A stretch of DNA of 50,161 nt, taken from a virus. The translations under genes and the position numbers were made by a program. This document shows positions 42,629 through 43,060 of the stretch, in pieces (the stretch's first letter is position 1; every line of letters begins with the position of its first letter). The notes beneath the pieces were generated by a model. It worked only from the letters and a program-made list of their open reading frames with translations. It was not told the DNA's origin and ran no database searches. The stretch is from the IMG/VR virus record IMGVR_UViG_3300009597_000018, positions 1-50,161 of that record. One strand, 5' to 3'.

Positions 42629-43060
42629 CCCGTCCGTTCCGGTGTGACAGACCCTTCCGTGCCGTTCCTCGCTAACCCGTCCCGACGCGACAGTCCTTAC
42701 CCCACCGACGTGACGCACCGAGATGTTTCAAGCCGTTGCGACAAACCCTGCCAAGCCGTTCCCTGCCGGACCTCACCGGCCCGACGCGACACTTCCATCC
42801 GCCCCGCCCCACCCGATGCGACGCTACATACCGTGCTGGCCCACGCCGAAGCGACAGTTCGTTCCGATCCCGTCTGTCCCGCGCCGTCGCGACAGTCCTC
42901 TCCGAACCACTCCGCACCGACGCGACCTACCAGTCTCATCCACGCCGATGCGACATACCTCGCCGTACCTCACCGACGCGACCCGCCAGGCCGAAGCGCG
43001 CCGCCACCGACTCGTGCCGAAAGCGACAGTTCATACCCAGCCGTTGCGACATAACGTTCC
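42629..43060. repeat. Composite 5-nt-period array: CCGNNGCGACA units spaced by CCNNN pentamers
   Basis: No gene is accepted here. About fourteen 11-mers of consensus CCGNNGCGACA start at 42639, 42682, 42705, 42733, 42781, 42813, 42846, 42884, 42917, 42945, 42973, 42991 (degenerate), 43017 and 43041. Almost every interval equals 13+5n, and the filler is CC at exact 5-nt steps (for example eight from 42746 to 42781, five from 42897 to 42917). The last CC (43059) touches the -10 region at 43061. On the minus strand this gives GG every 5 nt. Iterons, a multi-site operator or origin are possible. Confidence 0.85.

Follow-up and report, generated by a model that had tools for sequence, protein, structure and literature searches.

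What is the function of an intergenic stretch of phage DNA in which CC recurs every 5 nt, set between a RAMP-like gene and a ribbon-helix-helix (RHH) gene? The array lies in IMG/VR virus record IMGVR_UViG_3300009597_000018, all 50,161 nt of which are called the window here. An earlier note on this DNA had left several answers open: an origin, an operator, a partition site or a template for a novel RNA. Our analysis takes up the last of these. We propose, with a probability of roughly 0.83, that the array is a source of guide RNAs for a VIPR-type system whose protein is the product of the RAMP-like gene at 41853-42575. In VIPR, a phage RAMP protein, Vipr, acts with vrRNAs, which consist of 9-16 GGY/NN pentamers and a structured 3' tail, to repress rival phages; as the preprint describes it, a vrRNA pairs noncontiguously with dsDNA, through NN with one base skipped, usually the codon wobble position (PMC13142463; bioRxiv 2026, doi 10.64898/2026.04.26.720920).

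The features on which the argument turns are these:

41853-42575, + strand: Vipr-like RAMP gene, 240 aa (homologues beside arrays, AlphaFold2, Foldseek)
42625-43063, + strand: guide-like array (lag-5 excess, grammar parse and score, composition)
42644-43053, + strand: 13 separators GCG/ACNNN of 8 nt each, two of them GTG (parse), starting at 42644, 42687, 42710, 42738, 42786, 42818, 42851, 42889, 42922, 42950, 42978, 43023 and 43046
43064-43114, + strand: gap between array and RHH gene, with a 9-bp hairpin in the RNA fold of 43040-43115

Pentamers and separators

The reported recurrence of CC every 5 nt is real. Over 42629-43060, 35 CC-CC pairs fall at lag 5, versus 13.0±3.2 in dinucleotide shuffles, none of which (0 of 2000) reaches 35. 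Lags 10, 23, 28, 33 and 38 are also enriched (0 of 2000 shuffles each), in agreement with the 13+5n spacing that had been read from the sequence, and lags 2, 7, 11, 12, 16 and 17 are depleted. For scoring we used a grammar of two elements, the pentamer CCNNN and the separator GCGACNNN. The score is 142 over 42625-43063 (300 shuffles: median 11, maximum 24); elsewhere in the window it reaches 10 on the plus strand and 25.5 on the minus strand, the latter probably because of a GGY tract at 6318.

In the parse, the array consists of about 65 CCNNN pentamers, biased toward CCR-NN, with a 3-nt insertion at 13 places. The insertions create the G[CT]GAC motif that the earlier note had picked out, and 4-9 pentamers make up each unit between NNGAC separators. 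The two-level code proposed in that note therefore survives, but with the pentamer CCNNN as its basic unit; the supposed 13-nt module is two pentamers and a 3-nt insertion (CCGNN + GCG + ACNNN). CCGNNGCGACA occurs in 7 exact copies, in 11 with at most one mismatch and in 13 as a grammatical separator; the earlier count of about 14 becomes 13 separators.

Within the pentamers of the window array, base 1 is C in 86% and base 2 in 92%, base 3 shows a bias (58% G and 15% A), and bases 4 and 5 are nearly uniform; in the arrays of relatives, base 2 is mostly the steadiest, and base 3 is mostly poor in T. Mutual information links positions 3 and 4 (z 17) and 4 and 5 (z 20) but finds position 5 independent of the next position 3 (z 0.8), a pattern compatible with a gap between pentamers that neighbor-dependent mutation could also yield. 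RNA folding of the array gave no sign of a structured tail within it, and an Rfam search returned no match. Directly beyond the array, at about 43069-43091, the fold places the hairpin CTCGCACC...GGGTGCGGG, and the gap that contains it could serve as a tail or leader.

The gene that accompanies the array

Two genes flank the array, and its partner is the RAMP-like gene just upstream, which the earlier note had mentioned in its title only, and not the RHH gene. The ATG of the former is preceded by AAGGGAG, and its product carries the G-loop GLGADRSQGEG, of which GLGADRSQG is conserved. The protein has no match in Pfam or PHROG, and its sequence profile alone reaches Csm4, Cas5 and Cas7 at insignificant E-values only. 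Its AlphaFold2 model, built from 35 sequences (pLDDT 88, pTM 0.84), has a RAMP fold: the best 50 listed Foldseek matches in the PDB are all subunits of CRISPR complexes, mostly Csm and type VII, with E-values from 4e-8 and moderate TM-scores (mostly 0.36-0.56), and the second-best match in BFVD is a phage "Cas system-associated RAMP superfamily protein." As modeled, then, the window encodes a small, single, viral RAMP-fold protein with a G-loop, all of which are features of VIPR.

The association of this gene with such arrays extends well beyond the window. At least 119 stretches matched in a pattern scan, most of them by chance, but about a dozen are full arrays of the same grammar, and these adjoin a homologue of the window gene. 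As a single query, the window Vipr found no relatives because it is too divergent; an alignment of the RAMP protein family succeeded, yielding 37 loci in IMG/VR, which was searched with this alignment only, and one in GTDB genomes. With the window and the GTDB hit included, there are 35 non-redundant loci, and 32 of them carry an array (grammar score of at least 30 within 700 nt of the gene), compared with 2 of 1243 control windows (0.16%). Without the seeds and the loci found by pattern, 24 loci out of 27 do. Of the three loci that lack such an array, one (L148) ends 78 nt past the gene. Arrays in the relatives reach 2.7 kb and about 70 units, and the Vipr-like RAMP gene is the only one conserved at all loci examined (33/33). 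The nearest Vipr (L167) is 54-56% identical, and there too the array directly follows the gene. The contig with the nearest relative of the gene neighboring the array (L005) ends at that gene.

Several observations were made along the way. In Microcystis phage Mae-JY09 (PP395641; locus L168, 5733-6150), a homologue of the window Vipr precedes an array that is rich in CC and has CCGAC separators. Separators among relatives are GCGAC, GTGAC, TCGAC, CCGAC and, in L143, CATAATTGAC; the last (6645-6953) contain promoter-like CATAAT and TTGAC, and individual guides might start there. In one subgroup of loci (L154, L156, L158, L163 and L164, also L053 and L121), a gene of about 170-250 aa recurs beside vipr or the array and could be an accessory (vap) gene. 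In the window, 43315-44562 encodes a functionally uncharacterized phrog_10048 protein whose middle is Cys-rich and which is present in phages of many hosts.

Between close relatives, the units change. L073 and L125 have 1 of 29 units in common, although the DNA flanking their arrays is 91-94% identical; L138 and L141 share 3 of 9 units, with flanks at 91-93%; and for L136 and L137, which differ by one internal deletion, the figure is 12 of 19. The scaffold is thus retained while its content is replaced, which is the behavior expected of a guide array.

This turnover also bears on the readings in which the array acts as DNA. Ribbon-helix-helix proteins are able to bind short tandem sites, and the RHH product does match a HicB-type family (Pfam PF05534, E 1e-4), encoded some 50 nt downstream of the array from a probable GTG start at 43115, preceded by GAAGGAGGT. 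It is most improbable, however, that this protein uses the array as an operator or partition site, because the triplets of the array are variable and turn over, because no homologue of the RHH gene was found at any other array locus examined (as a query, too, the protein found no relatives) and because in almost all loci it is the RAMP gene that the arrays adjoin, on one side or the other. Nor is there support for an array that ends at the -10 of the RHH gene, as had been claimed: it stops about 50 nt before the probable start, and no sigma-70-like site was found. The emphasis placed on the RHH gene is therefore not supported. An iteron-type replication origin, or some other element with a purely structural role in the DNA, is less probable still; the repeats do sit in an early region, with a DnaB-like helicase gene at 46747-48039, but the GC skew, which the earlier note had suggested examining, shows no inflection at the array, the content of the array turns over, and the array accompanies the RAMP gene across unrelated phages. 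We also considered a minus-strand G-quadruplex, which would leave both the separators and the RAMP gene unexplained.

Proposed guide RNAs and their strand

By analogy with VIPR, the guide array would work as follows. It would be transcribed, most likely as the plus (CC) strand and together with vipr. Vipr subunits would then line up side by side on the RNA, one per pentamer, holding the fixed CC(R) and leaving the variable bases of each pentamer free to pair jointly with a gapped DNA target. The NNGAC separators would mark guide ends or tails; because 4-9 pentamers seem short for a single guide, such units would fit overlapping guides. The loaded complex would bind dsDNA of competing phages or prophages and block transcription; the probable purpose of the array would be the silencing of genes in rival phages. 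The array and its grammar, the link to the RAMP gene, the RAMP fold and the turnover of units on a constant scaffold come from the present analysis; RNA loading, noncontiguous pairing and repression are all borrowed from the VIPR preprint (PMC13142463).

Searches for targets covered 19 code variants (positions 4-5, 3-4, 5-3' and 3-4-5; steps of 2-6 nt) and gave nothing convincing above shuffled guides in the fetched loci, the top scores coming mostly from one tract of L146 at several placements. In IMG/VR, two gapped patterns, each of 16 bases and derived from the window array, had 15 and 11 matches, with no target at usable significance; for the first pattern, the matched genes are unrelated (glutaredoxin-like and others), and none of the matches extends further. 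A pattern of 18 bases taken from the GGY tract matched nothing.

Which strand supplies the guide is a separate matter. The published guides are G-rich, and the same VIPR-type system could take its guide from the opposite strand, as a YGG/NN RNA; nor is orientation absolute, since the arrays of L164 and L166 are inverted relative to the gene. We regard a GG-strand guide as possible but unlikely. CC lies on the sense strand of the gene in nearly all loci (the opposite-strand signal of L144 comes from its canonical GGY arrays), and canonical arrays are likewise on the gene strand. Moreover, the array of L136/L058 runs into the ribosome-binding site of vipr and therefore leaves no space for an opposing promoter outside the gene. 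Finally, compared with shuffles, folding is slightly weaker for the CC strand (mean z +0.36) and stronger for the GG strand (-0.95), a weak hint at CC-strand RNA.

Apparently canonical sequences occur as well, in the window and elsewhere. At 6318-6372 there are eleven perfect GGY-NN pentamers, and neither strand of the window has another GGY-NN run of 6 or more; the pentamers lead into a 13-bp UUCG hairpin (to 6404; fold z -3.0 for 6314-6420). This tract, 36 kb from the CC array and just upstream of an ORF (6532-8106) that is capsid-like by eye, resembles a single canonical vrRNA. A search of the window for a canonical RAMP was negative, with a model that is narrow and in a record that may be incomplete. 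RAMP-like genes with GGY-NN arrays on the gene strand are found in L038, Mycobacterium phage Donkeykong (gp49) and Gordonia phages ODay and Pipp, and 33 named Mycobacterium or Gordonia phage records hold a canonical Vipr-like gene. Unannotated GGC-NN arrays lie beside a "hypothetical protein" that looks like canonical Vipr in Donkeykong (NC_051648; locus L195, 2075-2320) and two further records (L196, L197). L144 (4412-6180) has a canonical RAMP and GGY-NN arrays beside a CC-type RAMP and CC array, and L142 also holds GGY tracts. By hhalign, the two RAMP groups are linked weakly, through the G-loop region alone.

Such co-occurrence could mean that the CC array yields a decoy or antagonist RNA, titrating the GGY/NN guides of other VIPR systems, because its CC dinucleotides could pair with GG dinucleotides that are likewise spaced at 5 nt, and the window, L142 and L144 all contain GGY sequences. 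This seems highly unlikely: the exact complement of GGY-NN is RCC-NN, but the bias here is CCR-NN, and neither the separators nor the dedicated RAMP gene beside almost every array would be explained.

Relation to known systems

We consider it very probable that the system of guide array and RAMP protein works like VIPR and belongs to it as a CCR/NN form with NNGAC separators. More tentatively, at somewhat less than even odds, these arrays and their Vipr subfamily may constitute a distinct and widespread VIPR type, with a complementary scaffold, long multi-unit arrays and separators that define overlapping guides, and a single phage could carry this type alongside canonical GGY/NN guides. In that case, at least two scaffold alphabets for noncontiguous guides would have arisen in the evolution of RAMP proteins. 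The claim of VIPR is months old, and an independent route, starting from an oddity in raw sequence, reaches the same kind of protein-array pair. This route contributes some 35 loci in which the scaffold differs, the separator as a further element, arrays as long as about 70 units and pronounced turnover of units between closely related phages. The choice of CC or GG by the RAMP pocket and the renewal of noncontiguous guides can now be tested.

Class 1 CRISPR effectors, which have a 6-nt period, resemble the present system in the RAMP fold (Cas7, Csm3 and Cmr RAMPs) and in the expected RNA-binding filament. The period here is 5 nt, in contrast to those 6 nt (PMC13142463). In addition, no cas genes were seen in the neighborhood, the content is not contiguous, and the arrays contain no near-identical CRISPR repeats, Vipr being the sole conserved gene among the loci. 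TIGR-Tas has a different protein family, which is not RAMP, and a different array architecture. The likeness to it lies in phage-borne tandem guide arrays outside CRISPR, as described for that system (PMC12045711).

The closest resemblance is to VIPR, whose guides, according to the preprint, may precede CRISPR (PMC13142463). Both have a small phage RAMP gene adjoining a long intergenic pentamer array of fixed and variable bases, with hypervariable content and a minimal locus. They differ in that the arrays here read CCR/NN on the gene strand and YGG/NN on the other, in contrast to GGY/NN in VIPR, and have regular NNGAC separators and many short units, up to about 70; because the opposite strand is YGG-NN, the window array is not a canonical array reversed. 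The main text of the preprint does not show the CCR/NN form with NNGAC, but it does mention seven types, a "related consensus" and "staggered arrays with overlapping vrRNAs" (PMC13142463). Since a related consensus is permitted for some types, CCR/NN bars the canonical form but not VIPR itself.
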